From a virus: a stretch of DNA of 25,465 nt. Shown piece by piece: positions 496-25,165 of the stretch (the stretch's first letter is position 1; every line of letters starts with the position of its first letter). The position numbers were made by a program, and so were the translations under genes. The stretch lies in IMG/VR virus record IMGVR_UViG_3300006752_000199, positions 1 to 25,465 of that record, one strand, 5' to 3'. The notes beneath the pieces were generated by a model. That model was not told where the DNA came from, did not search any database, and saw only the letters and a program-made list of their open reading frames with translations.

Positions 496-2799
496 ATGGC
501 GGAAGATACATCAAGACCTTCAGGGGCAAATAAATATTCTATATATGCTCAAAGAAGTGTAGATAGCACTCAAATGGACTGGAACGCAGCGTCCAAAGAA
601 TTAGTGACTGGACTGCAAACCATACAGGCTGAAAGAGCTGTTCGTAAAGCTGCGATTGAAGAATCTACTCAGAACGCTATAGAGCAGTTAAGCAAGGTTC
701 CAGAGACTGGAACTCAAGACGCTGCATCTTTACTGATAAATGGTTCAAGTATGTCTGTAAAAGGTATACAAGAACAAAACAATTTATTAAAGCGTGGTTT
801 AATTAGTCCTTCAGATTATAAGCTGTATATGCAGCAACAAAAAAATGGCTATTCAAGTTTAAGTACAGCTGTAAAAGGATGGGATGACTGGGCTGTTAAA
901 GCAAAAGAAAGATTACAAGCTGCAAAAGATGGAGGTGCAACAGCTTCGGAGCTGGAAATATTTTCAAATTTATCTGTCGAAGCTTTAGGTAATTTAAAAA
1001 ATAAAAAACTATGGTCTAACCCTACTAATGGTAAAATGCAGTTAGTAACAATGGGTAAGAATTCAAAAACTGGCTTGTATGATGTAATGCCTGATTACGA
1101 AAAAAGAAAACAAGACTATCAGAATCCTAATCAGATAATGAACTTTATGAAGTTTGAGCAAGATAGGATTGATGTTGATGATATGGCAACAGCTCAAACT
1201 GCTCAAATAGCAGATATTGTAAAAATTACCATGAGTGGTAAAGCATATCAAAGACTAACAGGTGGTGGAAGACAGATAAGCAAAGAAGACTTTAGAAATT
1301 TAGGGGACTTTGGGACAGATGAAAATGGTAATGCTATAACATATGACATGTGGAAATCTACACAGATAGACGCTATGGTTGGAGCTAAAGGTGATTTAAA
1401 AAACGACAATGCCTCTCAAGTTTTAACTAATTCTGGAAGATACTTTTTTGCAGAAACAGAAAGTCAATTTAAAGAAAACCATCCAGGAGTAGATAAAAAA
1501 TATATGATAAAAGTTGATATGAGTTCAGGAACACCTGTTCCAATAATGACTGATCCACAACAAAAAGAAGCAAGAAAACTTGCTGATATTGCAATTGAAT
1601 CACAAGTAAGTCATATAGAGAAAGTTGCAGAAACAGCTAAATCAGCACAAGCACCAGTGCAACCAAGTCCTTCAAGCATTGCACAAGGCAAACTGGACAG
1701 AGCAATGGTTGGGTATATGGATGATGCAAATGCTCTTACGTCTGATGACGAATCAACATTTGATGCTACAGCACAAGATCGTATAGTAGCCTTAAATAAA
1801 GAAATGACAATGCGTAATGGTGATCCAAATAAATTGATTGATAGCATAACTCGTGATGATACATCTATTAAATTCACCTTAGCTGACGGAACAGTAGAAA
1901 CAATACCAAGACTTGAAAACGGTGTTCCAAGAAACGTTGAAGACGTTGTTAGAGAAGTTTATAGATTAATAACACCTCAAACAGCTGACTATCAAAACTC
2001 ATATAAAGACGCTGCAATATTATACAGACAAGAACCAGGTGGTGGTTTTAGAGGTGCAGATAGAGATATGACTGATGAGGAATTAATTGCAGCAGCATCT
2101 GAAAAGAAAAGTGTGGAACAGTTAAGAACTCAAGGAATTAAGCCACAAATAGAGGAAACTAATGCACAAGGTCAGTTAACTGGTAAAATGATTGAAAATC
2201 CAGCATACGAGCCAGCTCTTAAACAAGCAATTCTTGATAACACACCTAATATTACAGATACTGAAAAAGCAGCTGTAAAGAAAAGAATATTAAAAAATAT
2301 AACTGGAGAGAAATACAGAGCCTTAGCTCCTCTTCCACCTCTAAAACAAAATACTGCTAAAATTGGAGTTCTTACGGAAAACGGTACGCCATCACCAGCA
2401 ACTGGTACAGAGCTTATTGAGAAAAAAGTAGGACGAACACTGGATGCTATTGATTGGGTTGGTGGGGACGATAGTGTTGAAGTTAATGATGTTTTAAGTC
2501 AGGTTATGAATGACTACCTTCCGAACGGAATAAAAGGTGGTGCTAAAGTTGCGTTTAAAAAAGATACTGTAACGGATAAGTACATTATTGAAGTTTCTTA
2601 TTTTGATAGAGCTGGAAAACAACAATCACTCCCTCCAATATATCCAGAGGTAGGAACTATGTTGGCTGGGGGAGCAACACCGTCTGAGTTAAACGAAATC
2701 ATGCATATAGCAGCACAAAAAGTTTTAGACGAAGAAAATGCAAGACTTACAACAAGAAATCAAAGAGGTACTGGTAAAAAACGAAAAAAGTTTAATTAA
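496..2799 (+). CDS. putative internal virion / ejection protein (767 aa)
   Basis: No catalytic motif is visible. The protein is long, polar and predicted mostly helical, with an Ala/Gln/Lys-rich N-terminal 150 residues (TGLQTIQAERAVRKAAIEES region), a Pro/Ser/Gln-rich hinge near residues 385-400 (AQAPVQPSPSSIAQ) and a strongly basic C-terminus (GTGKKRKKFN). It has no signal peptide or membrane helix. The start follows the preceding stop by 5 nt, and its stop shares one base with the next start (TAATG), so translation of the giant protein is probably coupled. The length is close to T7 gp15 (747 aa) and the position is equivalent, so an internal-virion role is plausible. I see no convincing sequence similarity, so the call is contextual. 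Confidence 0.75.
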   Translation: MAEDTSRPSGANKYSIYAQRSVDSTQMDWNAASKELVTGLQTIQAERAVRKAAIEESTQNAIEQLSKVPETGTQDAASLLINGSSMSVKGIQEQNNLLKRGLISPSDYKLYMQQQKNGYSSLSTAVKGWDDWAVKAKERLQAAKDGGATASELEIFSNLSVEALGNLKNKKLWSNPTNGKMQLVTMGKNSKTGLYDVMPDYEKRKQDYQNPNQIMNFMKFEQDRIDVDDMATAQTAQIADIVKITMSGKAYQRLTGGGRQISKEDFRNLGDFGTDENGNAITYDMWKSTQIDAMVGAKGDLKNDNASQVLTNSGRYFFAETESQFKENHPGVDKKYMIKVDMSSGTPVPIMTDPQQKEARKLADIAIESQVSHIEKVAETAKSAQAPVQPSPSSIAQGKLDRAMVGYMDDANALTSDDESTFDATAQDRIVALNKEMTMRNGDPNKLIDSITRDDTSIKFTLADGTVETIPRLENGVPRNVEDVVREVYRLITPQTADYQNSYKDAAILYRQEPGGGFRGADRDMTDEELIAAASEKKSVEQLRTQGIKPQIEETNAQGQLTGKMIENPAYEPALKQAILDNTPNITDTEKAAVKKRILKNITGEKYRALAPLPPLKQNTAKIGVLTENGTPSPATGTELIEKKVGRTLDAIDWVGGDDSVEVNDVLSQVMNDYLPNGIKGGAKVAFKKDTVTDKYIIEVSYFDRAGKQQSLPPIYPEVGTMLAGGATPSELNEIMHIAAQKVLDEENARLTTRNQRGTGKKRKKFN

Positions 2800-5700
2800 T
2801 GGATAAGTTTACAGAGTTATATAATTACTTAAAGGAAGAAGGATTAACAGATTTATCGGCAGAAGAATTTAAAGCTGAGTATGCAGCAGGTACTGCTAAA
2901 AATGCTGAACTATATTCTTATTTAAAATCTGAAAAATTAACAGATTTAGATGCAGAAAAATTTAATATAGAGTATTTCCCTGGTGTTGAAAAAAAAAATC
3001 CAAACGACATTTCTCCTTCAAACACTCCAGAGGTTATTACGGACTCTACTACCGAAACTCCAGAGGTCGTAGATACTTCTTTGGATACGTCCACGATTAA
3101 AAAACCTTTAGGTGATAATACTGTAATAGATGTACAGGAAGAAGACTCTACAGTTACTGAGTTCCCTGCATACGACCCTCGTGAGCAGGGCAAGGAGATA
3201 AATGCCAATCCAATTACATATAACTCAAGCGACTCACAGTTTGATAAATCATTAGCTTTTATAACTAAAGATTTAATAGACAGAGAAGAAAGTGAAGTAG
3301 TCAACAGAATGAAATATCATTTTGAAGATTATGGTTTTGACTTTGAACAAGGTGGTGGTTTTATGAGTGGATTAGATGGAATGAAAGTTACATCTAAAGA
3401 TGACCCAACTAAAAGTATAAATATTAATCTTGATCCTGTTTTTGGAGATATTTTTGGTGGCGAGTCAGGACCAGCAAAAGAACTTAGAAAGTTTTTAAAA
3501 GAAAACAGAAGGACTGACCAGAGAATGGAAAGTCTTGATGCTTCATATGATAAAAACAGAAAAAAATACTTTAGTTCTGAAGCTACTAAAAAAGATATTC
3601 AGGCTGTAAGAAATTCAGCCAAGAATCTAAATTCTGATTATAAGGTTTACCAGGACAGAAAAACTATTCATGAAGCAGAAATTGATGCTTTATTAGGTCA
3701 GCCTAAAGAAATACAAAACACACCTGAATGGAAAATAAAATATCAGCAAACATTAGCAGCTGGTAAAAGGTTAAAGCAATTTAAAAATAGATTAACTGAC
3801 AACTATAATAGTTATAAAAAATTTGAAGGTCAAATAAATTCTTCTGTAGGTAATTACATTGACATGAAAGAAGCGGACGACAGTACGTTTTTTGGTGGTT
3901 TAGTAAATGATTTTGTTGGTCCTGGTGTTAGTGAAGTCCTTGCAAGCGTGTGGGGGGCTGGTGTTGATGGATTTTATAAAGCGGCACAGTTTTTTGACGA
4001 AGACTTTGGTATGACTGCTGAAGAAAAAAAAGATCGTTATATTGATATAGCAAAAGATCTTGGATATCCAGTACCTGAAAATATAGAAGACGATGCTGTT
4101 TATACAAAATGGTTAGAAGGTTTGCAGGAGCAAAAGTTTGAGGATGAAGAAGTAGAAGGTGAATTGTCATTTAATACGTTTCCTAAAGAAATAATCGAAC
4201 GACTTGAAGCTGATGGTTTTGATTTAACTAAGCCAACTTTAAATGGACAATACTTTAATAAAAATCAGTCAGGATTAAATAAGTTTTTAAATGGACAATA
4301 CATTGACCTTCCTGACTATGCTTATGATAAAACAAGAGGTGAACGATTAAAAAGATTAGTATTAGATCAAGAGGTAAAAGAAAATAAAAATCCACAAAAA
4401 GAATTTATTAAAAAATATTTTAATGAAATATTATCTGCAGATGATATCTCAGATGAAAAATACGCTAAACAATCTAATAGTAATATTGTTTACACTGGGC
4501 TTTCTGGTCTTGCTAAGTCACTTCCGTCTGTATTAACTACTTTCGCATCAAGAGGAAAGATAGCTCCAGCTGTTGGATTAGGAGCAGCAAAAAGAAATTT
4601 AATTGCAAGAGGATTAGGCTTAACAACAAAAGGAGGTATTGCCCAAACAGTTTCATTTGCTTTGTTACAAGCTGAAGCAATGAATGTTGAAATGAACAAT
4701 GATCCTGATTTTAAGTATGTTACTGAGTCAGAAAGAAAGAACATTGTAATACCAACAGCTATTACTGTTGGTATATTAGAGCGTTATGGGTTTAGAAATA
4801 TAGCAGGTAACAAAGCTATAATGACTGGTTTAATGAACAAGGTAACTAATATGTTACCTGCAGGAGCAACTGCAGCAATGTTTAAAAACCAAATGAATAA
4901 ACTTGTTCAAAGTAATATTGCAAAAGGAATTTTTTCAAACACAGCTGTAAAAGCTGCTGCAACTTTTACTGGTCGAGTTACTAAAGCTGCTTTAGCAGAA
5001 GCAGAAACAGGTGGTCTTCAGCAAATAGCTGAGATGGGTTATAAAGATGTATGGAATAACATGAATAATAAAGACATGTTTGAACAACCTGAATTATGGA
5101 CCAAAGAGTTTTGGGGAACAGTTGGACATGCTGCAGCTGCTGAAGCTGTAGGTGGTTTTGTAATGGGTGTTCCAGGAGCAGTAATTGCAGCGGCTAAAAA
5201 CAAGACTTCCGATTTACTTTCTGATGATCTTGTTGAAATGTTTGACATGATAAGAAATGATGAAATAACTGTAGAAGCTTATCAGACACAGTTAGACTTA
5301 GCCGTTTCTAATGGTAAAATAACATCAGAGGAAGCATCAAAACAGATGTTAGATTTTCAAACATTAAGTGGAGCTGCTAACACTCTACCAAGTGACTTAG
5401 ATGTTAACTCAAGAAAAAAAGGATTAGTATTAATCTTTGAGCAACAACAATTAGAAGCTGAAATGGAAAAAATGAATAAGAATTTAAATTCTTATAAAAC
5501 CAAAGAAGCCAGAGTTGAAGAAATAAAAAACGAAATTGGACAGCTTGGGACTAATCAAGCTCAAGCAAATACCAATCTAAGAAATGAGACTGAAGGAATT
5601 CAAGATTCTGTTTTAATTACAGAAGAAGATGCCACAAAATCTTTACAAGATAAGGGGGTGCAAAACCCTACAGTTGAACAAATTAAAACCGAACAAGATG

Positions 5701-8700
5701 CCCTACAAAAGCAAAGCACAACGAGCTTGGATGCACAAGAATCTTCCAGAAGTAGCGAAGAGGTGGGACAAAGCGTACCCAACAGCCAGTCTACCCAACA
5801 GAGTGAAACCGAAGACAAAGCTCAAGACAAAAAGAAGACCAAGGAGGAAGTAAGTCAAGAAGAACAAAATGATATAGACGATTTCTTTGGTGATGAAGTT
5901 TTAGACGACGTTGAAACCTCTTCAGATAATTTATCTATAAATAGAAAACAAGTAGAGGGAGATACAGAAATAGAGAACACAACTTTAGCATCAGCCGTAG
6001 TAAATAAAGCAAAAAAAGCTGCACGAGCAATTGCTAAAATAGCACCTGAAGTGAAGATAGTTTTACACGACACTCAAGCTGAATACGAAAAGTACGCAAC
6101 AAAAGGTAGTCGAGGGTATTACAACCCAAATAGTAAGGTTATACACATTAATTTAACTAAGGCTAAAGGAAACACAGTAGCTCACGAAGTTTTTCATGCG
6201 GTATTTTTAGATAAAATATCTGGTGGTGACGTTCAAGCTAAACAAGCAGCTTTGAAATTAATAACCTCTGTAAGAAAAACCTTACCAGCTGAATCATTGT
6301 TAGCTAAAAGAATAGATAATTTTGCTAAAAATTATGATGAAAACTTTAAGAACGAAGAGAAGTTAGCAGAGTTATTTTCTTTAATGGCTACTGAATATAA
6401 AACATTAAAGAAGCCAGGACAAAATAAAATTATAGAATTTATAAGATCAATGGCGGCCAAATTAGGCGTTACAATCCCTGGTGGTTTTGGTAAAACAGAC
6501 GAGTCAGTTATAGATTTTATGAATGCATTTTCTAAAAAAGTTAGAACTGGTACTGAAATAACAGAAGGTGATGTAGATGTTTTAAATAAAATAAATGAAG
6601 ATGTTATAGTTGAACAAGGAACCTTAGTTGAAGAGGCAGATGGTGTAATTCCAAATGAAATAGAAGACGATGGGCCTTCTATTGATTTTAGAGAGAATAG
6701 AGAGTCTCAAATAAATAGAGGAGGTATTGATATGGGTTCAATAAAACGTGGCTCTATTAACGAACTAAGCGGTACAAATGCATTTGTTTTTGCAGCTGAT
6801 CAAGCAACTTATGGTGAGGTTGAATCTCCATCTGGAAACAAATTTAAATTTGACGGTGGGTTTTTATACCCTTATGGGGCAGAAGCTGCAGGTAGTAAAG
6901 CCGCGTGGGTTTTTTCTACAGAAGGTGCTGCTAATAAGGTATTAAATAAAGTAAACGAAAGTGATGGTGTAGGTCTTGTTATGTCACAAGCTAAAAACGG
7001 AATTACAGGAAACTTGCAATTTTTAGAATACATAAATAGTGAAATTAATTACGCCATAGAAAAAGGTGCATCACCTCAAGAAATGCTTGCGTACATAAAT
7101 ACAAAATTAAAATTAACAAAAGTTGCTAACGGATTGAGTAAAAGAGGTTTCCCTTCTCAAATAAATAGTTTAGAACAATTATCAGAAATATTAACACCTT
7201 TGAATTTTGAACAAAGAGGTGAGTTTACTGAAAAATTTCTTAGCAAAGATTCTTATGAGAAGTTTAATATATCTCCTTTTTCTCCTTTAAAAACTGTTCC
7301 AACAAATACATCGGATGTTGTTAACGACCCAACTTTATCTAACATTGGATATGGAGATATTGTATCTGCAATTCAATTTGAAAAAAGTGGTAAGCCTTTT
7401 AAGTTAAGTAAAGGAGAGCCAGGTTATCATCCTGCATACCCTTGGGCAATCCCTGGAAAGGGACTTATGGTATTTAACAGAGGGGTTGATGTTAGAAAAG
7501 TATATCCTGAATCAAAACCTAAATCAAAAGAAGCTAATCAGACACCTTTAGGTAAAAGAACTAAACCAGCTGCTGCAAGATCTGCAATGGGCGGTCAGTT
7601 TACGGCTAAAGTTCCATCTAATATAAAAGTTGAAGGTTCTGAAATAAGACAAGGTAGAGAACAATTAACCGCTTCTAAATTAGAGTCTAATTTAGAAAGT
7701 AAATACAATGCTACTTTAGATATATATGAAAATAAAGGATTTTTAGAACTGGACAAAATTATTATTAGCGAGGACCAAAGAAATAAAGGTACTGGAACTA
7801 AAATGATGAAAGAAGTTATTTCTTTTGCTGATAGTAGAGGATTAACAATAGCTTTGACTCCAAGTAAAAGTTACGGAGCTACATCTGTTGAAAGATTAAA
7901 ATCATTTTATAAAGGCCTGGGGTTTGTAGAGAATAAAGGAAGTAATAAGGATTTTTCTACAAAGCAAAGTATGTTAAAATTACCCTCAAGACAAGGCAGG
8001 GAACAGTCTACTGAACAGCAAGTAAAAGATCAAACTGGAATGCCAGCAAGTGGGTTCTATAGCGCTCAAGCTATGGTGTCAGACATCCAACGTCAGTTTA
8101 ATAGAATTGGTCCAGGATATGTAGCGAAAAGAGCTAAACAAGGCGCTTATGGAGGTGGCGGTGGTGTATATGTCATTGGTCCTAATAAACGTATTGTAAA
8201 AAATCCTACACGAAAAGGACGTCAGCAGGCAATGGATAATGAAAACGATTTGCTTAGAATTATAATAGCTGGCCGAGAAGAAGGAGGTTTTGAAGATGCA
8301 GCTATAAAAGATTATTTAAAGAGAAGAAAAAGAAAGGTTGATGGTAAAACAGCAAGTGCTTATAGTGCAAAAGAAATTAATGCTGCATTCAAAGTTTTAG
8401 AAAGCGAAGCTTTTGATTCTTACATGTTTAGAGAATACCCTACAAGTTTTAATGACATAAAAGGTGGTTTTCTGGCTGGTCTTAAATTAATGAAAGATGT
8501 TGATACTTACTATAAAAAATTAGTTGAAAAGAATAATTTAATTAAAGATAGAGTTGCAAAAAACAGAAAGACAAAACAAGTTCCGCTGACTGACGAACAA
8601 ATTAATTTGAAAGTTTTAGATTATTTTATGTCGCTTCCAGGATACAAAAGCGTAGGGGTAAAAGGCAAAAGACAGACATCCCAGCAGCTCGCTATGGAAC

Positions 8701-11700
8701 GTGATATGTTAAACATACTGCTTCCTGATCCATTAAAGGCTAATCCTAAACGTATTGCAGCAATAAACAGAAGAATAAAAAACATAAAGTTTACAGAAAG
8801 AAACCTTAAAGGTGTTCAGAGAGCTTTAAGAAATTACATAAGAACAGTACTACCAAGGGATTTATATACTAAAAAAGAAATAACTGATTTAATTGATAAA
8901 GTGAATAGAGTAAACGCTACAAACTTTGAATCAGTTAAAGATGAGGTTTTTAAAATAGTTACTACAAAAACAAATAAAAGACTTGAGAGTGTTTTATTTA
9001 AGATGCTTGATAAAGCTTATACCACTATTCAAAGCGGTAGATTTAAAGGTGTTAAAATTGATAATGAAACTCGTAAAAAGTTAAATCGTATCAATAAATT
9101 AGTAGTGAACCCTAAGTCAACTGGCGATCAAATAATGGAAGCCAATGAAAAACTTTTAAAATTATATAATGAAGTTTCTACAGAAGAGGTGGTAGACGAA
9201 AAAGATAAAAAAAGTCGTAAGACTAAATCTACATTTAGTAAAAGTGATTTACAGCAGATGGCTGAAATTACATTAGCTATGCAGATAAACACATCTTTTA
9301 CTCAAGACATGAATGACTCTAATAAAACTACTCAGTTAAGCTCAGTAATCAATAGCTTAAAACAAATAGAAGAGTCTGGGAAAGCTAATTTTGAGTACGA
9401 ATTACTACAAGACGCTATACAATACAGAGAGAATGAGAGAGCTGTATACAAGGATATGACAGGTATAGATATTGATGCAAAACAATCACTTATTGACCAA
9501 GGTATACCTGAGAATGAAATTACTGAGTTTATGGTAAACGAAGAGTTTCAAAAAATTAAAAAAGATGTTTCACTTGATGCTAAAGAATCAGGTGGCTTAA
9601 AAGTAGAAGGTGTTATAAAAAGATTCAAAGGTTCACTAAATAGTTTAGCTACTAAAATTGAGCAAGGGTTATTTGGAAGTGCAGAGGATATGACAGGTTT
9701 AATAGACAGAATATCTACACAACCAGGAGAAATATTTGAAGGCGCAACTCAAGAACTTACACAGAAAAAAATACGTTCTTCTTCAAGAGTTTATAAGTCA
9801 AGAATGATTGGACAGCAATTAAGTCTTTCTAATAAAATGACAGAATTATTTGGCAACAAATGGGTTAACATAAACAGAAAAAACTCTCAGATGACTGAAT
9901 CTATTGTTCGTAGTAAGGTCAAAGATGATTTACTTCAAGGACAATTGAAAGAAGCTCAAGAAAATAAAACTTTAAAGAAAGGAGAACGAACAGCTTTAAT
10001 TAATTCAATACAAAAGGAGATTGATCAAAACACAGTAAACCTAAGTCAAAACCAATTGCTTTATTATTATTCACAGATGCAAGATCCTTCTTTAGAAGGG
10101 AGCATGATAAACACTTTTAATCCTACAAGAAAGGGAAATATAGTGTTTGACAATGAATTTAAGAGCAGAATAGAGCAAGAGATATCAGATAAATTAGATG
10201 AAAGATTAAAAGACTTATCTGAGTGGATGATAAAAGATTATTACCCATCTTCTTATGACCACTACAACAATACTTACAAGAAAATTTACAGGACTGATAT
10301 GCCTTGGAATCAAAACTATGCTGGTCGTGTGTATCGCCAAAACGAAAACGACATGGAAGCTTTAGATTTATTAGCCGACAGTCAATCATGGATTACAAAC
10401 GTTGGCTCTGCCAGTACTAAAGTAAGAGTTCAAAATACTAATCCAATAGAAAAAGTAGATGGTGTAGATGCATTACTTAATTATACCAAAGACATGGAGT
10501 ATTTTGCTGCATATGGTGTTGCTATAAGAGATATAAATAAAATATTTTCATCACCAATGATAAAAGAAACCATTAAAGAAAAATTTGGTTCTACTATTTA
10601 CACATACATTGATGATTCTATAAAAAAAATAGCAAACAAGGGAATACAATCACAAAGACAAATACAAGTAATAAATACCTTTAATAATACATTTTTGTTA
10701 TCTCGTTTAGGTTTAAACCCAACACTTATACTAAAACAAATGACATCTTTCATCACGTATGGAAATGACATTGGTTATATAAATTGGGTTAAAAATGCTG
10801 CCATGAGTACGACTCAAGCAAAAAAATTAGTAAACGAAGTTTTGGACAACTCAATTGTTCTACAAGACAGGTACGGACAAACAATTAAAAGAGCTGTAGA
10901 GACATATGCTGATGAAAAGTTTGAAAAAATGAATGGTGGTCTTTTAGAGCGTTTTGGATTAACAAACGCAAAGCAAGACAAGATTAGTAAAATTTTAATG
11001 TGGACCACAATGACAGGGGATAAAGGCGCTATACTTGTTGGTGGTGTTCCAAATTACTTATATTATAAAAATGAATTTAAAAAGAAAAACCCTGAAGCTT
11101 CAGAACAAGAGGTTATTGATCATGCAATAAAAAAGTTTGAAGCTGACACATTAAGAACTCAACAGTCATCTGATTTACAAGATAAAGATTACTTTCAAAC
11201 TAAAGGGGCGCTTATAAGAGCCTTTAATATGTTCTTGACAACTCCAAAACAATATTTCCGTAGAGAAATTATTGCAGCAAGAAACATGTATAGAATTGTT
11301 AAAAGTGGCGGTAAGCAGGGTAAAGGTGTTATAAAAGATAATGGAGAATTAAATTACTGGAAAAGTTTAGGTAAATCTGCAAGAAGTTTAGCAGTGTATC
11401 ATGTGGTGATGCCAGTGGTTTTTCAGTGGGTGTCTGCTGGATTGCCAGGTCTTTTAAGAGGGATGAATGATGAGGATAAAAAAGATTTAGGAATAGCCGC
11501 TCTTTTAGGTAACTTAAATGCTTTGTTTATTATAGGAAAAGTAGCCGAGACCCTTAAAGATGTTGCGTTAGGTAAGCCTTGGGCAAAAACTCCATCAACA
11601 ATTCCAATTTTAGGGCAAACATCACAGTTGGCAGATTTATACATGCGTGCGCAAAAAGCAAAAGGTGTAAAAAAAGAAGAAGCTATGAATAAATTCATGG

Positions 11701-12017
11701 CAGAAGCAATTGCCCTTACAGGTATACCAGCACCACAATTAAGAAAGTTTATGAAAAACTTTTCTGAAATTGGTGACTCAAAATCTATGGGTGAGTTCAT
11801 ATTAAAACTTTTTAATTTTTCTGAGTACCAGCAAAAGGGAGGAAATAAAAGTAAAGGGTTAAAGTTAACGAAAACTGAACTGAAAAGATATTTTCCAGAA
11901 CTATACCCAGACACTAATGAAGATGGACCGATGGAAGATTATCTTAAATTACAGAAAGAAGCTAAAGCAGAACAAAAACGTTTAAGAAAAGAGCTTCTTG
12001 ATCAGATTTATAATTAA
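2799..12017 (+). CDS. giant multidomain virion 'polyvalent' protein (3072 aa) with zincin-like peptidase and GNAT domains
   Basis: Probably packaged in the virion and injected with DNA, as proposed for large polyvalent phage proteins. Visible parts in order: two imperfect copies of a roughly 31-residue repeat (about 6-66, cores ELYNYLKEEGLTDL and ELYSYLKSEKLTDL); an acidic Ser/Thr linker (70-150); a hydrophobic Ala/Gly-rich region (about 560-810); a Gln/Glu-rich probable coiled coil (about 875-935); a low-complexity linker (about 940-1060) containing a nested reading frame; a zincin-like domain with HEVFH at 1129-1133 and a candidate third ligand E1191; an unrecognised domain (about 1340-1560); a GNAT acetyltransferase-like domain (about 1620-1725) with the CoA-loop pattern RNKGTG at 1661-1666; then about 1300 largely helical residues ending with hydrophobic segments (about 2860-2930) and a basic C-terminus. 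The peptide RQGREQ occurs at 1617 and 1731, flanking the GNAT domain. By position it is the T7 gp16 equivalent. The peptidase and GNAT calls rest on motifs only. Confidence 0.88.
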   Translation: MDKFTELYNYLKEEGLTDLSAEEFKAEYAAGTAKNAELYSYLKSEKLTDLDAEKFNIEYFPGVEKKNPNDISPSNTPEVITDSTTETPEVVDTSLDTSTIKKPLGDNTVIDVQEEDSTVTEFPAYDPREQGKEINANPITYNSSDSQFDKSLAFITKDLIDREESEVVNRMKYHFEDYGFDFEQGGGFMSGLDGMKVTSKDDPTKSININLDPVFGDIFGGESGPAKELRKFLKENRRTDQRMESLDASYDKNRKKYFSSEATKKDIQAVRNSAKNLNSDYKVYQDRKTIHEAEIDALLGQPKEIQNTPEWKIKYQQTLAAGKRLKQFKNRLTDNYNSYKKFEGQINSSVGNYIDMKEADDSTFFGGLVNDFVGPGVSEVLASVWGAGVDGFYKAAQFFDEDFGMTAEEKKDRYIDIAKDLGYPVPENIEDDAVYTKWLEGLQEQKFEDEEVEGELSFNTFPKEIIERLEADGFDLTKPTLNGQYFNKNQSGLNKFLNGQYIDLPDYAYDKTRGERLKRLVLDQEVKENKNPQKEFIKKYFNEILSADDISDEKYAKQSNSNIVYTGLSGLAKSLPSVLTTFASRGKIAPAVGLGAAKRNLIARGLGLTTKGGIAQTVSFALLQAEAMNVEMNNDPDFKYVTESERKNIVIPTAITVGILERYGFRNIAGNKAIMTGLMNKVTNMLPAGATAAMFKNQMNKLVQSNIAKGIFSNTAVKAAATFTGRVTKAALAEAETGGLQQIAEMGYKDVWNNMNNKDMFEQPELWTKEFWGTVGHAAAAEAVGGFVMGVPGAVIAAAKNKTSDLLSDDLVEMFDMIRNDEITVEAYQTQLDLAVSNGKITSEEASKQMLDFQTLSGAANTLPSDLDVNSRKKGLVLIFEQQQLEAEMEKMNKNLNSYKTKEARVEEIKNEIGQLGTNQAQANTNLRNETEGIQDSVLITEEDATKSLQDKGVQNPTVEQIKTEQDALQKQSTTSLDAQESSRSSEEVGQSVPNSQSTQQSETEDKAQDKKKTKEEVSQEEQNDIDDFFGDEVLDDVETSSDNLSINRKQVEGDTEIENTTLASAVVNKAKKAARAIAKIAPEVKIVLHDTQAEYEKYATKGSRGYYNPNSKVIHINLTKAKGNTVAHEVFHAVFLDKISGGDVQAKQAALKLITSVRKTLPAESLLAKRIDNFAKNYDENFKNEEKLAELFSLMATEYKTLKKPGQNKIIEFIRSMAAKLGVTIPGGFGKTDESVIDFMNAFSKKVRTGTEITEGDVDVLNKINEDVIVEQGTLVEEADGVIPNEIEDDGPSIDFRENRESQINRGGIDMGSIKRGSINELSGTNAFVFAADQATYGEVESPSGNKFKFDGGFLYPYGAEAAGSKAAWVFSTEGAANKVLNKVNESDGVGLVMSQAKNGITGNLQFLEYINSEINYAIEKGASPQEMLAYINTKLKLTKVANGLSKRGFPSQINSLEQLSEILTPLNFEQRGEFTEKFLSKDSYEKFNISPFSPLKTVPTNTSDVVNDPTLSNIGYGDIVSAIQFEKSGKPFKLSKGEPGYHPAYPWAIPGKGLMVFNRGVDVRKVYPESKPKSKEANQTPLGKRTKPAAARSAMGGQFTAKVPSNIKVEGSEIRQGREQLTASKLESNLESKYNATLDIYENKGFLELDKIIISEDQRNKGTGTKMMKEVISFADSRGLTIALTPSKSYGATSVERLKSFYKGLGFVENKGSNKDFSTKQSMLKLPSRQGREQSTEQQVKDQTGMPASGFYSAQAMVSDIQRQFNRIGPGYVAKRAKQGAYGGGGGVYVIGPNKRIVKNPTRKGRQQAMDNENDLLRIIIAGREEGGFEDAAIKDYLKRRKRKVDGKTASAYSAKEINAAFKVLESEAFDSYMFREYPTSFNDIKGGFLAGLKLMKDVDTYYKKLVEKNNLIKDRVAKNRKTKQVPLTDEQINLKVLDYFMSLPGYKSVGVKGKRQTSQQLAMERDMLNILLPDPLKANPKRIAAINRRIKNIKFTERNLKGVQRALRNYIRTVLPRDLYTKKEITDLIDKVNRVNATNFESVKDEVFKIVTTKTNKRLESVLFKMLDKAYTTIQSGRFKGVKIDNETRKKLNRINKLVVNPKSTGDQIMEANEKLLKLYNEVSTEEVVDEKDKKSRKTKSTFSKSDLQQMAEITLAMQINTSFTQDMNDSNKTTQLSSVINSLKQIEESGKANFEYELLQDAIQYRENERAVYKDMTGIDIDAKQSLIDQGIPENEITEFMVNEEFQKIKKDVSLDAKESGGLKVEGVIKRFKGSLNSLATKIEQGLFGSAEDMTGLIDRISTQPGEIFEGATQELTQKKIRSSSRVYKSRMIGQQLSLSNKMTELFGNKWVNINRKNSQMTESIVRSKVKDDLLQGQLKEAQENKTLKKGERTALINSIQKEIDQNTVNLSQNQLLYYYSQMQDPSLEGSMINTFNPTRKGNIVFDNEFKSRIEQEISDKLDERLKDLSEWMIKDYYPSSYDHYNNTYKKIYRTDMPWNQNYAGRVYRQNENDMEALDLLADSQSWITNVGSASTKVRVQNTNPIEKVDGVDALLNYTKDMEYFAAYGVAIRDINKIFSSPMIKETIKEKFGSTIYTYIDDSIKKIANKGIQSQRQIQVINTFNNTFLLSRLGLNPTLILKQMTSFITYGNDIGYINWVKNAAMSTTQAKKLVNEVLDNSIVLQDRYGQTIKRAVETYADEKFEKMNGGLLERFGLTNAKQDKISKILMWTTMTGDKGAILVGGVPNYLYYKNEFKKKNPEASEQEVIDHAIKKFEADTLRTQQSSDLQDKDYFQTKGALIRAFNMFLTTPKQYFRREIIAARNMYRIVKSGGKQGKGVIKDNGELNYWKSLGKSARSLAVYHVVMPVVFQWVSAGLPGLLRGMNDEDKKDLGIAALLGNLNALFIIGKVAETLKDVALGKPWAKTPSTIPILGQTSQLADLYMRAQKAKGVKKEEAMNKFMAEAIALTGIPAPQLRKFMKNFSEIGDSKSMGEFILKLFNFSEYQQKGGNKSKGLKLTKTELKRYFPELYPDTNEDGPMEDYLKLQKEAKAEQKRLRKELLDQIYN
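5698..5853 (+). CDS. nested KSKAQ-type small phage protein, out of frame inside the giant gene
   Basis: A 51-codon frame, shifted +1 relative to the giant gene, reads MPYKSKAQRAWMHKNLPEVA and continues KRWDKAY, then a Lys/Arg-rich tail ending KRRPRRK. The opening matches a very common family of tiny phage proteins with the pattern KSKAQ-R-(aromatic)-x-H...P(E)-x-A-K-x-W-(D/E)-K, whose function is unknown. The match spans about 25 residues, too long for chance. The giant protein in the same bases is a Ser/Gln/Glu/Lys linker without domain character. By my hand count 5701-5820 is about 49% GC, clearly above the AT-rich surroundings. The frame is also open upstream to an ATG at 5629. No strong ribosome site is visible, but genes here lack one generally. 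It may be an expressed overlapping gene or the relic of a gene swallowed by the giant frame. Confidence 0.6.
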   Translation: MPYKSKAQRAWMHKNLPEVAKRWDKAYPTASLPNRVKPKTKLKTKRRPRRK

Positions 12018-12866: not shown

Positions 12867-13096
12867 TAATCTAAGGAATTAAGTATTTGTTTTCCTACAG
12901 CTGCATTTATTTTGCCAATGGCTCTATAAAGTTTTCTTGACTTGACTTTAGTAGCGTGTCGTTCTGTTTGTGTGGATTCTTTACCCATGTTTGTGTAAAG
13001 ACAGCAGTCTATAAATAAAAGGGTATCAATTTTCTTTTTGTCAGACCAAGTTTTATAATTTAAAATTTTATCTATGTCTTCTACGCTATAATCCAT
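12866..13096 (-). CDS. 76-aa protein of unknown function
   Basis: No known domain recognised. The first half is acidic and helical (MDYSVEDIDKILNYKTWSDK). The second is basic, with a TNMGKESTQTERHATKVKSR segment leading into a probable amphipathic helix (KLYRAIGKINAAVGKQIL). The basic helix could contact nucleic acid, but that is speculation. It overlaps the end of the DnaA-like gene by 11 nt and hands over to the next gene through a TAATG junction, so it is cotranscribed with the replication genes. Confidence 0.68.
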   Translation of the reverse strand: MDYSVEDIDKILNYKTWSDKKKIDTLLFIDCCLYTNMGKESTQTERHATKVKSRKLYRAIGKINAAVGKQILNSLD

Positions 13097-13610
13097 TTAA
13101 ATATGTATTTACTTTTCGTTCAAAAGCTGAAAAATTGTTTCCTGTTCTATGTTCAATATCAGCGACCAGTTTATAGAACTTTTTATACTTACCAGTGTAG
13201 TGATTAACTTCCTTTCTCAAGTCACTTACCTCCAAATTTAACTTTTTATTTTGATTTACGAGAAATTTTATTCTGTTTTTTAAATCAGACTCAAGTAATG
13301 AGTCAAAGTTTTCAACATTTTCAAGCCAATTATTTACAATATTGTTGTATGAAAGTTGTATGTCAGGATCATATTTTATTATGTAAGGAAGTTGTTTTAG
13401 ACTATGCAATACAGTTGCATGGTTTTTGTTGAAAACTTTTGCAATATCAGTTAAGCTCATTCGCAAATGTTTTCGTAAAATATCGTATACAACAGCTCTT
13501 GCAAATATATACTCACGTTTTCTTGTATTTACCCTTGGGTCCAGTCCCAGTACTTCTTCTACATTTAGGATTATGGCCTCTATTGTTTTTTCTTTAAGAG
13601 ATGATTTCAT
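13086..13610 (-). CDS. DnaA domain IV-like DNA-binding protein with coiled-coil tail (174 aa)
   Basis: Residues about 25-80 resemble the C-terminal DNA-binding domain of the replication initiator DnaA: an N-terminal REYIFARAVVYDIL helix, a helix-turn-helix (LRMSLTDIAKVF) and the signature NKNHATVLHSLKQL at 61-74, comparable with the RDHTTVLHA motif that reads DnaA boxes. The AAA+ ATPase domain of DnaA is absent. The remainder (about 110-170) is a Lys/Glu/Asn-rich probable coiled coil, suggesting dimerisation. Such stand-alone DnaA-C proteins are known in phages of Bacteroidetes and others, and may bind the phage origin or host DnaA sites; the role here is inferred. The start overlaps the preceding stop (ATGA at 13607-13610). 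A second protein with the same fold is at 20341-20634. Confidence 0.8.
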   Translation of the reverse strand: MKSSLKEKTIEAIILNVEEVLGLDPRVNTRKREYIFARAVVYDILRKHLRMSLTDIAKVFNKNHATVLHSLKQLPYIIKYDPDIQLSYNNIVNNWLENVENFDSLLESDLKNRIKFLVNQNKKLNLEVSDLRKEVNHYTGKYKKFYKLVADIEHRTGNNFSAFERKVNTYLNGL

Positions 13611-21913: not shown

Positions 21914-21953
21914 GAATAGGGAGGAATCGAACCTCCCAAGCACCATGCTATTC
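21914..21953 (-). ncRNA. 40-nt tRNA-like mini-element (acceptor stem + T-arm), copy 1
   Basis: On the - strand, GAATAG (21953-21948) pairs with CTATTC (21919-21914). Between them are an 11-nt connector CATGGTGCTTG and a T-arm with stem GGAGG/CCTCC and loop TTCGATT, directly stacked on the 3' acceptor strand as in tRNA. There is no anticodon arm and no CCA. GGTTCGATTCC is the canonical tRNA T-loop context, and the connector's TGG could act as the D-loop GG that docks with it. It starts 5 nt after the stop of the 121-aa gene and ends 33 nt before the next ATG. Acceptor/T-arm minihelices are minimal RNase P substrates, so an mRNA processing role is inferred. Confidence 0.6.
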
Positions 21954-23454: not shown

Positions 23455-23494
23455 ACTGGAGAAGGAATCGAACCTTGCTTACAACCATTCCAGT
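23455..23494 (-). ncRNA. 40-nt tRNA-like mini-element (acceptor stem + T-arm), copy 2
   Basis: On the - strand, ACTGGA (23494-23489) pairs with TCCAGT (23460-23455). An 11-nt connector ATGGTTGTAAG leads to a T-arm CAAGG-TTCGATT-CCTTC, four pairs plus a C-C mismatch at the base. Total length (40), connector length (11), the ATGGT word, T-loop sequence and an A-A mismatch just outside the acceptor stem all equal copy 1 at 21914-21953, while the stem sequences differ yet still pair, which supports a conserved structure. It begins 17 nt after the stop of the 164-aa gene and ends 36 nt before the next start. No anticodon arm or full cloverleaf can be drawn. Confidence 0.6.
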
Positions 23495-23511: not shown

Positions 23512-24006
23512 CTAAACCTTGTAGCTATAGTTCTCTGCTACCCATGTACATAAAGTCTCTCTATTGCCCTCTGACAGCTCCATGAACAGGTTAAATACAT
23601 TAGCAGTTCCACCATGACCATTTCTCTTGTTGAGGTTCTGCCATTTAGCCTCTATATGATTAGCCAGTGACGTACCCTCTCCAAAAGCTTTTTGTATCCA
23701 TCCAGTTGGGAAGTTATACGCAAAGTACATGAAGTTAGTAATCGAGTCAGCTGCAGCATCTCTCTTCTCTTCTTCTTCATCATACTCGTCATACCATTCT
23801 GTCCATATGTACAGCTCCTGCTCGTGTGCATCGTCCAGTATGAACTCATCAGAGCAGTCAGTGTATGCTTCTTTGTAGTTCTCTTTCAACCAAGCTACTA
23901 AGCTGGTTTCATCTTTAATGGTTTCATCATTGTGCAGAAGGTAACCTTCATACATTCCTGCTCCAGTGATAATACATGTTCTTGGTTCTTTGTTTAAATT
24001 ACTCAT
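23512..24006 (-). CDS. 164-aa acidic protein of unknown function
   Basis: Not recognised. It is strongly acidic, with ELYIWTEWYDEYDEEEEKRD around 85-105 and an N-terminal CIITGAGMYEGYLLHNDETI. The general look (acidic, about 165 aa, early) recalls DNA-mimic anti-restriction proteins such as ArdA, but I do not see their sequence motifs, so this is only a hypothesis. Its start is 22 nt downstream of the predicted hammerhead cleavage site, so the mature transcript would begin just ahead of it. Confidence 0.72.
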   Translation of the reverse strand: MSNLNKEPRTCIITGAGMYEGYLLHNDETIKDETSLVAWLKENYKEAYTDCSDEFILDDAHEQELYIWTEWYDEYDEEEEKRDAAADSITNFMYFAYNFPTGWIQKAFGEGTSLANHIEAKWQNLNKRNGHGGTANVFNLFMELSEGNRETLCTWVAENYSYKV

Positions 24007-24022
24007 AATTGTAGTTTTTAAT

Positions 24023-24072
24023 GATTAAGACGCTTCACAGCGTTTCGACTATTTAAGTCTCGTCAGTTAATC
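24023..24072 (-). ncRNA. type I hammerhead ribozyme, copy A
   Basis: All core parts occur in order on the - strand: stem I 5' strand GATTAA (24072-24067), CTGACGA (C3-A9, matching CUGANGA), stem II GACT/AGTC with loop TAAAT, GAAA (24046-24043), stem III ACGCT/AGCGT (the A is the last of GAAA) with loop GTGA, cleavage triplet GTC, stem I 3' strand TTAATC (24028-24023). Stem I is the open helix, so type I. Predicted self-cleavage is between 24029 and 24028, leaving a 22-nt leader before the ATG at 24006. The 5' half also encodes the last codons of the 85-aa gene, whose TAA lies in the stem II loop. Every helix covaries with copy B. Confidence 0.92.
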
Positions 24073-24310
24073 TTTGAAAAACCAGCATACTCTTTTGAGT
24101 ATAAAGAATTTTCTCCTCCAGTGCCGACAGCACGTCATACATCATGTGTCTTTGTGTAGCATCATGAGTTACGTTCTTCTCGATTAGCTTGTACATAAGA
24201 AGTCCTACGTCTTCAGCACTTAAGCTATCCACTTGGTCTTGCCAGTCTACGTTTGTAAGTTCAACTGAAGACATTAATTGTTTGATTTGTGATTCTTTGG
24301 TATTTTCCAT
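24053..24310 (-). CDS. 85-aa helical protein ending inside a hammerhead ribozyme
   Basis: Begins MENTKESQIKQLMSSVELTN and is mostly predicted helical (EDVGLLMYKLIEKNVTHDAT, MYDVLSALEEKILYTQ). No family is recognised. The last six residues, RLTDET, are encoded by the stem I strand, catalytic core and stem II of hammerhead copy A, so ribozyme self-cleavage removes no coding bases but leaves the stop codon close to the new 3' end. The start is preceded by CACTTAAATTTAAACAC, the same leader type as at 22702 and 21880. Confidence 0.72.
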   Translation of the reverse strand: MENTKESQIKQLMSSVELTNVDWQDQVDSLSAEDVGLLMYKLIEKNVTHDATQRHMMYDVLSALEEKILYTQKSMLVFQRLTDET

Positions 24311-24332
24311 GTGTTTAAATTTAAGTGATTAA

Positions 24333-24548
24333 TTATATCCATTGTTTTGATTCCTGTAATTCTGTAATCTTCTCTTGCATCTCATTGATGACATCAAATA
24401 GCTCTGACCACTGGTCATCGTCTTGTAAATATTCATCTTCGATATGCTCCAGTACTAAGTTACACTGCGTGTCTAACTTGTTGATTTCTGTGCGTACATA
24501 TTCTTCTGTCTCTATTTTAGAGATTGTTTTGAAAAGCTTGTTACTCAT
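24333..24548 (-). CDS. 71-aa acidic coiled-coil protein of unknown function
   Basis: Highly charged and helical throughout (SKIETEEYVRTEINKLDTQC, VLEHIEDEYLQDDDQWSELF, INEMQEKITELQES), consistent with a short antiparallel or dimeric coiled coil. It is acidic overall. No family is recognised. The start is 2 nt after the stop of the 46-aa gene, so translation is likely coupled. Start residues MSNK are shared with the 76-aa gene at 23418, but similarity does not extend further. Confidence 0.7.
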   Translation of the reverse strand: MSNKLFKTISKIETEEYVRTEINKLDTQCNLVLEHIEDEYLQDDDQWSELFDVINEMQEKITELQESKQWI

Positions 24549-24550
24549 GA

Positions 24551-24691
24551 TTAAAATGGATTAGATGTTACGAAATAGCTTAGTGCTATTACATTTTTCT
24601 TTACTTGTTCTAATTCGTACAGCTTTTGAGCTGTCTTGATTAATGCACAGTCAATACGTACATACTTAATTACTGTTTTTGATTTACTCAT
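24551..24691 (-). CDS. 46-aa protein downstream of hammerhead copy B
   Basis: Reads MSKSKTVIKYVRIDCALIKT and continues AQKLYELEQVKKNVIALSYF, ending VTSNPF. It is basic, with a probable central amphipathic helix. No family is recognised. Support comes from the ATGAGTAA start type shared with its neighbours, the 22-nt spacing to the hammerhead cleavage site, and the tight 2-nt junction with the next gene. Confidence 0.65.
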   Translation of the reverse strand: MSKSKTVIKYVRIDCALIKTAQKLYELEQVKKNVIALSYFVTSNPF

Positions 24692-24707
24692 TGTAGTTGA
24701 ATTTTAA

Positions 24708-24757
24708 AGTTAAGACGCCTCTCGGCGTTTCGTCCTATATGGACTCATCAGTTAACT
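24708..24757 (-). ncRNA. type I hammerhead ribozyme, copy B
   Basis: On the - strand: stem I 5' strand AGTTAA (24757-24752), core CTGATGA (24751-24745), stem II GTCC/GGAC with loop ATATA, GAAA (24731-24728), stem III ACGCC/GGCGT capped by a GAGA tetraloop, cleavage triplet GTC, stem I 3' strand TTAACT (24713-24708). This is a full match to the hammerhead consensus. Cleavage is predicted between 24714 and 24713, giving a 22-nt leader before the ATG at 24691, the same length as for copy A. Compared with copy A, stems I, II and III have changed on both strands and still pair. The first two bases overlap the stop codon of the upstream 124-aa gene. Confidence 0.93.
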
Positions 24758-25130
24758 ATAGACTTAGACCTGCGAACTTCTCCAGCTCTGCCCAGTCTTT
24801 ACCAGCATCGCTTTTGGTTTTTGCTTCTTGGTATTTTCCGAGTATTCTTCCCATCTCAACCGATACCTGTGGTTCCATGGATGATGCTGACATTACATTT
24901 TTACCTCTTGCATTAGTCACAGAAAAACCCCATGTTCTAACTCCGTGTCTTAGTACGTCCAGTGGACACACATTCATCCAGTATCTAAGTGTCATTGTAA
25001 ACTCTGGAGTGCTTACTTTAATCGACCATACATTGTCCTTAGCTGTCATGGTTACATTGCATGCTGCTTTAGATAGTAATGTGTTTAACACTTTGATTTC
25101 ATCTCTGTTACTTAGTTGTTGTTTACTCAT
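24756..25130 (-). CDS. 124-aa protein of unknown function, first early gene in the window
   Basis: Begins MSKQQLSNRDEIKVLNTLLS and contains a probable beta-rich centre (VTMTAKDNVWSIKVSTPEFT, MTLRYWMNVCPLDVLRHGVR), ending in an acidic/basic helix (GKDWAELEKFAGLSL). No family is recognised. I chose the ATG at 25130 (ATGAGTAA start type) over the in-frame ATG at 25142, which would add MQST. Its stop codon overlaps the first bases of hammerhead copy B. A structured element lies 35 nt upstream of the start. Confidence 0.7.
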   Translation of the reverse strand: MSKQQLSNRDEIKVLNTLLSKAACNVTMTAKDNVWSIKVSTPEFTMTLRYWMNVCPLDVLRHGVRTWGFSVTNARGKNVMSASSMEPQVSVEMGRILGKYQEAKTKSDAGKDWAELEKFAGLSL

Positions 25131-25165
25131 AGTTGATTGCATAATAATTAAATTTAAAAGTTAGT

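Follow-up and report, generated by a model that had tools for sequence, protein, structure and literature searches.

Type I hammerhead ribozymes and anticodon-less tRNA-like hairpins at gene junctions of a phage operon and its relatives

Introduction

In phage T7, RNase III sites between the early genes cut the early polycistronic RNA into defined mRNAs. Mitochondrial transcripts are punctuated by tRNAs, and RNase P accepts minihelix substrates. Tandem hammerhead ribozymes have been described that flank single genes in prophages of Agrobacterium tumefaciens (around ardA), Clostridium scindens and Azorhizobium (Perreault et al. 2011, PMC3088659). In that report, the tandem phage hammerheads proved active in vitro, and one of the sets in E. 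coli as well, and transcript processing was proposed; in the haloviruses HF1 and HF2, HHphage is located 13 nt upstream of the start of an early gene and the 5' end of the mRNA lies within 3 nt of the cut (PMC3088659). On this account, the role suggested here had been put forward for tandem hammerheads in phages by 2011. Hundreds of bacterial hammerheads came to light in that year, and what hammerheads do in phages has not been settled since.

Here, we analyse a viral contig of 25,465 bases, referred to in full length as the window, in which two hammerhead ribozymes are located between small genes. As in the prophage sets of the 2011 report, same-strand hammerheads flank single genes or short blocks of genes, both in the window and in records with multiple copies; by contrast, a fixed distance from cut to start, stop codons inside the ribozyme, more than 10 copies per phage and a second boundary element are not described in the accessible part of that report (PMC3088659). 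HHphage of HF1 and HF2 differs in that it has a variant core with insertions and belongs to archaeal viruses (PMC3088659). The window copies share the core, the three stems and the type I topology with the Rfam family Hammerhead_1 (RF00163), and their sequences identify them as canonical type I members. T7 RNase III sites depend on a host protein nuclease, whereas the window RNA would cut itself. In the searchable literature, which includes few subscription journals, we did not find the fixed 22-nt rule, in-ribozyme stops, up to 14 copies or a coexisting tRNA-like element.

Results

The primase encoded in the window is 67% identical to the primase of an uncultured podovirus and ~39% identical to Flavobacterium elemo phages (N-terminal part), and this similarity makes a member of the Bacteroidota the probable host. 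A 3072-aa protein (2799-12017, + strand) contains ~300 residues related to a structural protein of Flavobacterium elemo phages, and a small protein with a DnaA C-terminal DNA-binding domain (PF08299) is encoded at 13086-13610 (- strand) beside phage replication genes. The hammerheads are part of a minus-strand operon of a dozen small genes that runs from near 25142 toward the replication genes; that this is an early operon is a reasonable inference from its layout. Hammerheads occupy only 2 of its ~11 junctions (Table 1), and no DNA similarity of the hammerhead region to deposited phages was found.

Table 1. Features of the hammerhead-bearing operon. R1, covariance model from 50 phage hammerheads, 2 of which are identical to the window copies; R2, model of the tRNA-like element built without window sequences.
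Feature	Coordinates	Strand	Remarks
128-aa gene, upstream of ribozyme 1	24756..25142	-	stop codon overlaps stem I
Hammerhead ribozyme 1, type I	24708..24757	-	predicted cut 24714/24713; RF00163 35.9 bits; R1 64.6 bits
Leader after cut 1, 22 nt	24692..24713	-	A/T-rich, without Shine-Dalgarno sequence
46-aa gene, directly downstream of ribozyme 1	24551..24691	-	ATG 24691
71-aa gene, between the two ribozymes	24333..24548	-	
85-aa gene, 3' end enters ribozyme 2	24053..24310	-	stop in loop II
Hammerhead ribozyme 2, type I	24023..24072	-	predicted cut 24029/24028; RF00163 30.0 bits, E 9e-4; R1 71.1 bits
Leader after cut 2, 22 nt	24007..24028	-	A/T-rich, without Shine-Dalgarno sequence
164-aa gene, directly downstream of ribozyme 2	23512..24006	-	ATG 24006
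tRNA-like element 1 (acceptor and T arm, no anticodon arm)	23455..23494	-	36 nt before ATG 23418; R2 44.8 bits, E 5.5e-8
tRNA-like element 2 (acceptor and T arm, no anticodon arm)	21914..21953	-	33 nt before ATG 21880; descriptor: 6 acceptor and 5 T-stem pairs

Both window copies contain the hammerhead core CUGANGA ... GAAA ... UH, and the cmscan alignments place the open end in stem I in both. The original prediction of two type I cores on the minus strand, with 685 nt between the predicted cuts, is correct in its coordinates. It had proposed the Rfam type I model as a check, and here the outcome is split: copy 1 exceeds the gathering cut-off of 34 bits, and copy 2, like most phage copies, scores below it. 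The core pattern matches twice in the window, and none of 100 shuffled windows contained two matches. The two copies differ by two pairs in stem I, two in stem II and one in stem III, each time on both sides, which bears out the claim that all three stems have changed and still pair. Loop II of copy 1 is ATATA and a clear partner in loop I is absent; most of the hammerhead family is TNAAT-like in loop II.

The equal spacing of 22 nt from cut to next start that had been noted is exact for ATG 24691 and ATG 24006. The stop codons lie as proposed: TAG of the upstream gene (24758-24756) shares nucleotides with the first base pairs of copy 1, and TAA (24055-24053) is inside loop II of copy 2. Copy 2 is, as had been recognized, partly coding, in that the last codons of the 85-aa gene pass through its stem I, its core and half of its stem II.

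The 164-aa gene downstream of ribozyme 2 was found at 16 viral loci, and hammerheads were present in 10 records. In relatives, ribozyme 1 is located directly upstream of the 46-aa gene, and the preceding gene varies, encoding a 128-, 112-, 169- or 140-aa protein. Ribozyme 2 has paired variants in four relatives (L006-L009), as exemplified by the compensated stem II GUCC/GGAC in L006; it is missing in L005 and L010-L012, where the upstream gene differs, and in these relatives sequence likeness resumes right after the position of the cut site. Both hammerheads are absent and both tRNA-like elements are retained in L005, L011 and L012. Since L011 (a 56-kb record) and L012 (a 20-kb record) have related genes without either hammerhead, the cuts would be dispensable. 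In L005, L011 and L012, the 46-aa protein exists as a 76-aa form, and loss of ribozyme 1 is thus accompanied by a longer reading frame.

To address how far the arrangement extends, viral DNA was searched with the pattern CTGANGAG..CGAAACG..CGTCTTAA (which contains TTAA), giving 115 matching stretches; when GATA replaced GAAA in the pattern, viral DNA gave no matches. All three stems pair in 88 of the 93 first-pattern matches checked, a pairing that the pattern does not demand, and in 95 of 98 matches to a second pattern that is not restricted to the stem I of the first (among the matches listed). A descriptor recognized 164-167 unique sequences in the first set and at least 121 more in the second, with no matches in the reversed sequences of the first set. 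At least 257 distinct ribozymes fall within stricter stem limits, and in total ~280 hammerheads were examined. For 50 diverse members, preselected by a descriptor that demands pairing so that the non-circular evidence is the 88/93 and 95/98 given above, covariation is 0.852 compared to 0.172 when shuffled and at most 0.149 when slid; 14 pairs are 99.9% paired across the 50 members, and 12 pairs have changed on both sides. A chance origin is ruled out by the shuffles and by the lack of matches to the broken-core pattern and in reversed sequence. The ribozymes are also not remnants of mobile repeats, as stems and flanks vary with compensation and the genomic position is conserved.

Because the core is invariant while all stems vary with compensation, these data indicate that selection acts on the hammerhead core and stems as RNA and not on DNA identity. 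This bears on two alternatives. The conserved blocks could be linkers at the DNA level that provide homology for the reshuffling of small genes, with ribozyme activity being incidental; the differing gene content around the ribozymes among relatives, and the homology that resumes just past the cut site where the upstream gene differs, are in agreement with this idea, but selection on RNA rules it out as the sole function, and we regard it as improbable. Alternatively, the uncut fold could serve as a non-catalytic hairpin module, i.e. as a 3' stabiliser or a translation insulator. From the fold, stems II and III would indeed shield the upstream 3' end; however, a plain hairpin does not need the CUGANGA/GAAA core, and the GATA variant of the core is absent, which makes this possibility highly improbable.

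The position of the ribozymes relative to genes is similarly constrained. Counting as ATG the start of a frame of at least 25 codons, the distance from cut to ATG in the first set has a median of 22 nt (quartiles 21-24), and 147 of 163 distances are within 18-30 nt; this range captures 8% of random positions and, on the opposite strand, a single case out of 167. The distribution breaks off sharply at its lower end, and distances below 18 nt are very rare. In the second set the median is 28 nt (among the matches listed). Leaders are A/T-rich and without a Shine-Dalgarno sequence in the first set, and many in the second set contain GGAGG (among the matches listed). In 120 of 148 cases in the first set, the upstream stop is located at -10 to +24 of the core, the commonest positions being -3 (53), -8/-9 (28), +1 (21) and +11 (10); the -3 stop is a TAA that ends stem I, the +1 stop is the TGA of the core and the +11 stop is in loop II, i.e. 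three different frames are used. Since the first pattern includes TTAA, it over-represents the -3 TAA class; the second set shows the same stop positions (among the matches listed).

In one hammerhead (L167:3590-3639, - strand), a GGAGG Shine-Dalgarno sequence lies within stem I, 14 nt before the ATG, and cleavage could therefore release the ribosome site. In L169, L181, L188, L203, L205 and L208, the hammerhead is followed by a conserved GGGGAATAA(C/A)TGG hairpin block instead of a nearby start codon; these hammerheads represent a separate context, probably with another type of element.

Because stops and starts are so close to the ribozymes, cleavage controlled by ribosomes has to be considered. 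Folding would be blocked by a ribosome that terminates within stem I or the core or by one that initiates 22 nt further downstream, and cutting would then occur only on poorly translated RNA and set the ratio of neighbouring genes. The clustering of upstream stops in the ribozyme in the first set (n=148) and likewise in the second (among the matches listed), the stop of the window's 85-aa gene in loop II and the GGAGG within stem I of L167 are what such a switch predicts. However, overlap of elements is normal in compact phage genomes and, with TGA always included in the invariant core, some overlap comes for free. We consider a translation-coupled switch unlikely.

Model R1 detected up to 14 hammerheads per record (in a 22-kb and a 40-kb contig) and nine in a record of 51 kb, and in the multi-copy records listed all hammerheads are on one strand. 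In the 22-kb contig with 14 copies, nearly every gene junction of one stretch is occupied. At nearly every junction along 6 kb of L238, a stop codon is followed after a few bases by a hammerhead, then by 13-20 bases that include a Shine-Dalgarno sequence, and then by the start. The proposal that hammerheads punctuate small genes is supported, and the geometry recurs in many other phages. The oddity attached to two copies falls away: two tandem copies had been thought unusual against sporadic phage hammerheads, the arrangement is widespread here, and tandem sets appear in the 2011 report (PMC3088659). Cultured carriers are Cellulophaga phi19:3, Flavobacterium elemoA and Agrobacterium OLIVR1. 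A reading of the hammerheads as a bacterial rather than a viral feature is unsupported, with a strong match in 1 of 396 Bacteroidota genomes (E 1e-4) and two stretches in the GTDB collection. A 5.8-kb contig of an Aliivibrio MAG (L147, JAAGZR010000219.1) carries seven or eight hammerheads and probably belongs to a phage that was assigned to the wrong bin.

Hammerheads are able to catalyse ligation, and in retrozymes they serve circular RNAs. Flanked by two same-strand ribozymes, the 685-nt fragment of the window could be excised, and its 5'-OH and cyclic-phosphate ends could join to form a circular three-gene mRNA. Set against this, the copy number is one or irregular in many records, and in the 2011 report spliced or circular products were sought and none were found (PMC3088659); excision and circularisation therefore appear extremely improbable.

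Further downstream in the operon, two other junctions contain tRNA-like hairpins (Table 1). The hairpin comprises 40 nt and consists of a 12-bp acceptor/T helix, a T loop and a link of 10-11 nt (AATGGTTGNA) that replaces the D and anticodon arms. Element 1 is present in the relatives examined; for element 2, model R2 recovers the T arm alone (22 bits, E 0.046). The elements at 23494 and 21953 do not form a cloverleaf with an anticodon arm, ARAGORN found no tRNA genes in the window, and Rfam gave no tRNA match for the elements at E up to 5. As far as Rfam 15 was searched, the tRNA-like family is absent from it.

Among the listed matches of a link and T-loop pattern on viral contigs, 76 of 113 fit the minihelix, five are ordinary tRNAs and 32 are neither. 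With a gap of 4 in the commonest register, 6 or 7 of the 7 acceptor positions are paired in 34 of 45 distinct matches (among those listed), and for gaps of 4 and 5 together 69% of acceptor positions are paired compared to 40% after swapping strands between sequences (among the matches listed). Covariation in 31 chosen members is 1.115 versus 0.193. On this sequence evidence, the anticodon-less hairpins are a covarying family at phage gene junctions. Ordinary tRNAs are ruled out for most matches by ARAGORN and by Rfam. Fragments of tRNA genes from integration sites (PMC9897764) are unlikely, given that both acceptor strands are present and covary and that copies recur at successive junctions.

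Matches to the tRNA-like element fall between genes of cultured Mycobacterium, Streptomyces and Streptococcus phages, with Mycobacterium phages Konstantine and Fowlmouth among the carriers, and also on contigs of more than 100 kb (family loci including L294, L303 and L358-L361). In L294 (2408-3498) four elements occupy four successive places, each ~20 nt before a start, and in L303 a hammerhead is at one junction and a tRNA-like element at the next. The next start is within 60 nt in 31 of 44 cases on the same strand and in 10 on the opposite strand, a looser spacing than that of the hammerheads. Co-occurrence of the two elements is modest; on the partial contigs analysed, both types were present at a handful of ~195 hammerhead loci and at 3 of 96 loci with a tRNA-like element. 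As in mitochondrial tRNA punctuation and RNase P minihelices, an acceptor and a T arm are placed at gene junctions; the difference is that the anticodon arm is lacking and the short link takes the place of the D and anticodon arms. The 12-bp acceptor/T helix and T loop fit the RNase P substrate ruler, and the elements are candidate substrates of this enzyme.

Discussion

Combining the structure of the ribozymes with their placement, we suggest that the hammerheads probably cut the polycistronic RNA cotranscriptionally into short mRNAs of one or a few genes. In this model, (i) the minus-strand operon would be transcribed and each hammerhead would fold and cut its own transcript, (ii) in accordance with the type I topology, the catalytic part would remain on the upstream piece, and the upstream mRNA would terminate with the hairpin of stem III and a 2',3'-cyclic phosphate, and (iii) the downstream mRNA would begin with a 5'-OH, followed by an unstructured leader of 22 nt that is A/T-rich and approximately matches the footprint of an initiating 30S subunit. 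In total, these steps would convert the polycistronic RNA to short mRNAs with uniform ends independently of a host nuclease. The tRNA-like hairpins in the same operon may do the same job by means of host RNase P and/or RNase Z. The benefit would be that small genes in a region of shuffled gene content have mRNAs whose stability and translation are set independently. The further effects that had been proposed, a stability governed by the 5'-OH and an escape from triphosphate-dependent decay, would be speculative.

Several observations count against cutting. Only 2 of the ~11 junctions of the operon have a hammerhead, and L011 and L012 do without either copy. Ribosomes that terminate at a stop codon within the ribozyme could unfold it, and the contact between loop I and loop II that is required for fast cleavage is not evident in the sequence of copy 1. 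We favor transcript cutting over regulation by the fold or DNA-level readings because the hammerhead and a structurally unrelated hairpin resembling a minimal RNase P/Z substrate share their placement and have similar geometry. More tentatively, and with less confidence than for cutting by the hammerheads themselves, we propose that many dsDNA phages may share a scheme of RNA punctuation in which a hammerhead or an anticodon-less tRNA-like hairpin (a site for host RNase P/Z) would act as interchangeable cutters at the boundaries of small early genes, with the stop in or beside the element and the start following at a distance of ~20 nt (hammerhead) or 20-40 nt (tRNA-like).

Constant geometry, high copy numbers in single phages and a second, unrelated element in comparable places point to one function, i.e. 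the separation of transcripts at gene boundaries. This yields the quantitative prediction of 5'-OH ends ~22 nt before starts, and the cultured carriers (phi19:3, elemoA and OLIVR1 for the hammerheads; Konstantine and Fowlmouth for the tRNA-like elements) make transcript separation testable. If true, phages would define the ends of their mRNAs by RNA structure, partly without host nucleases.
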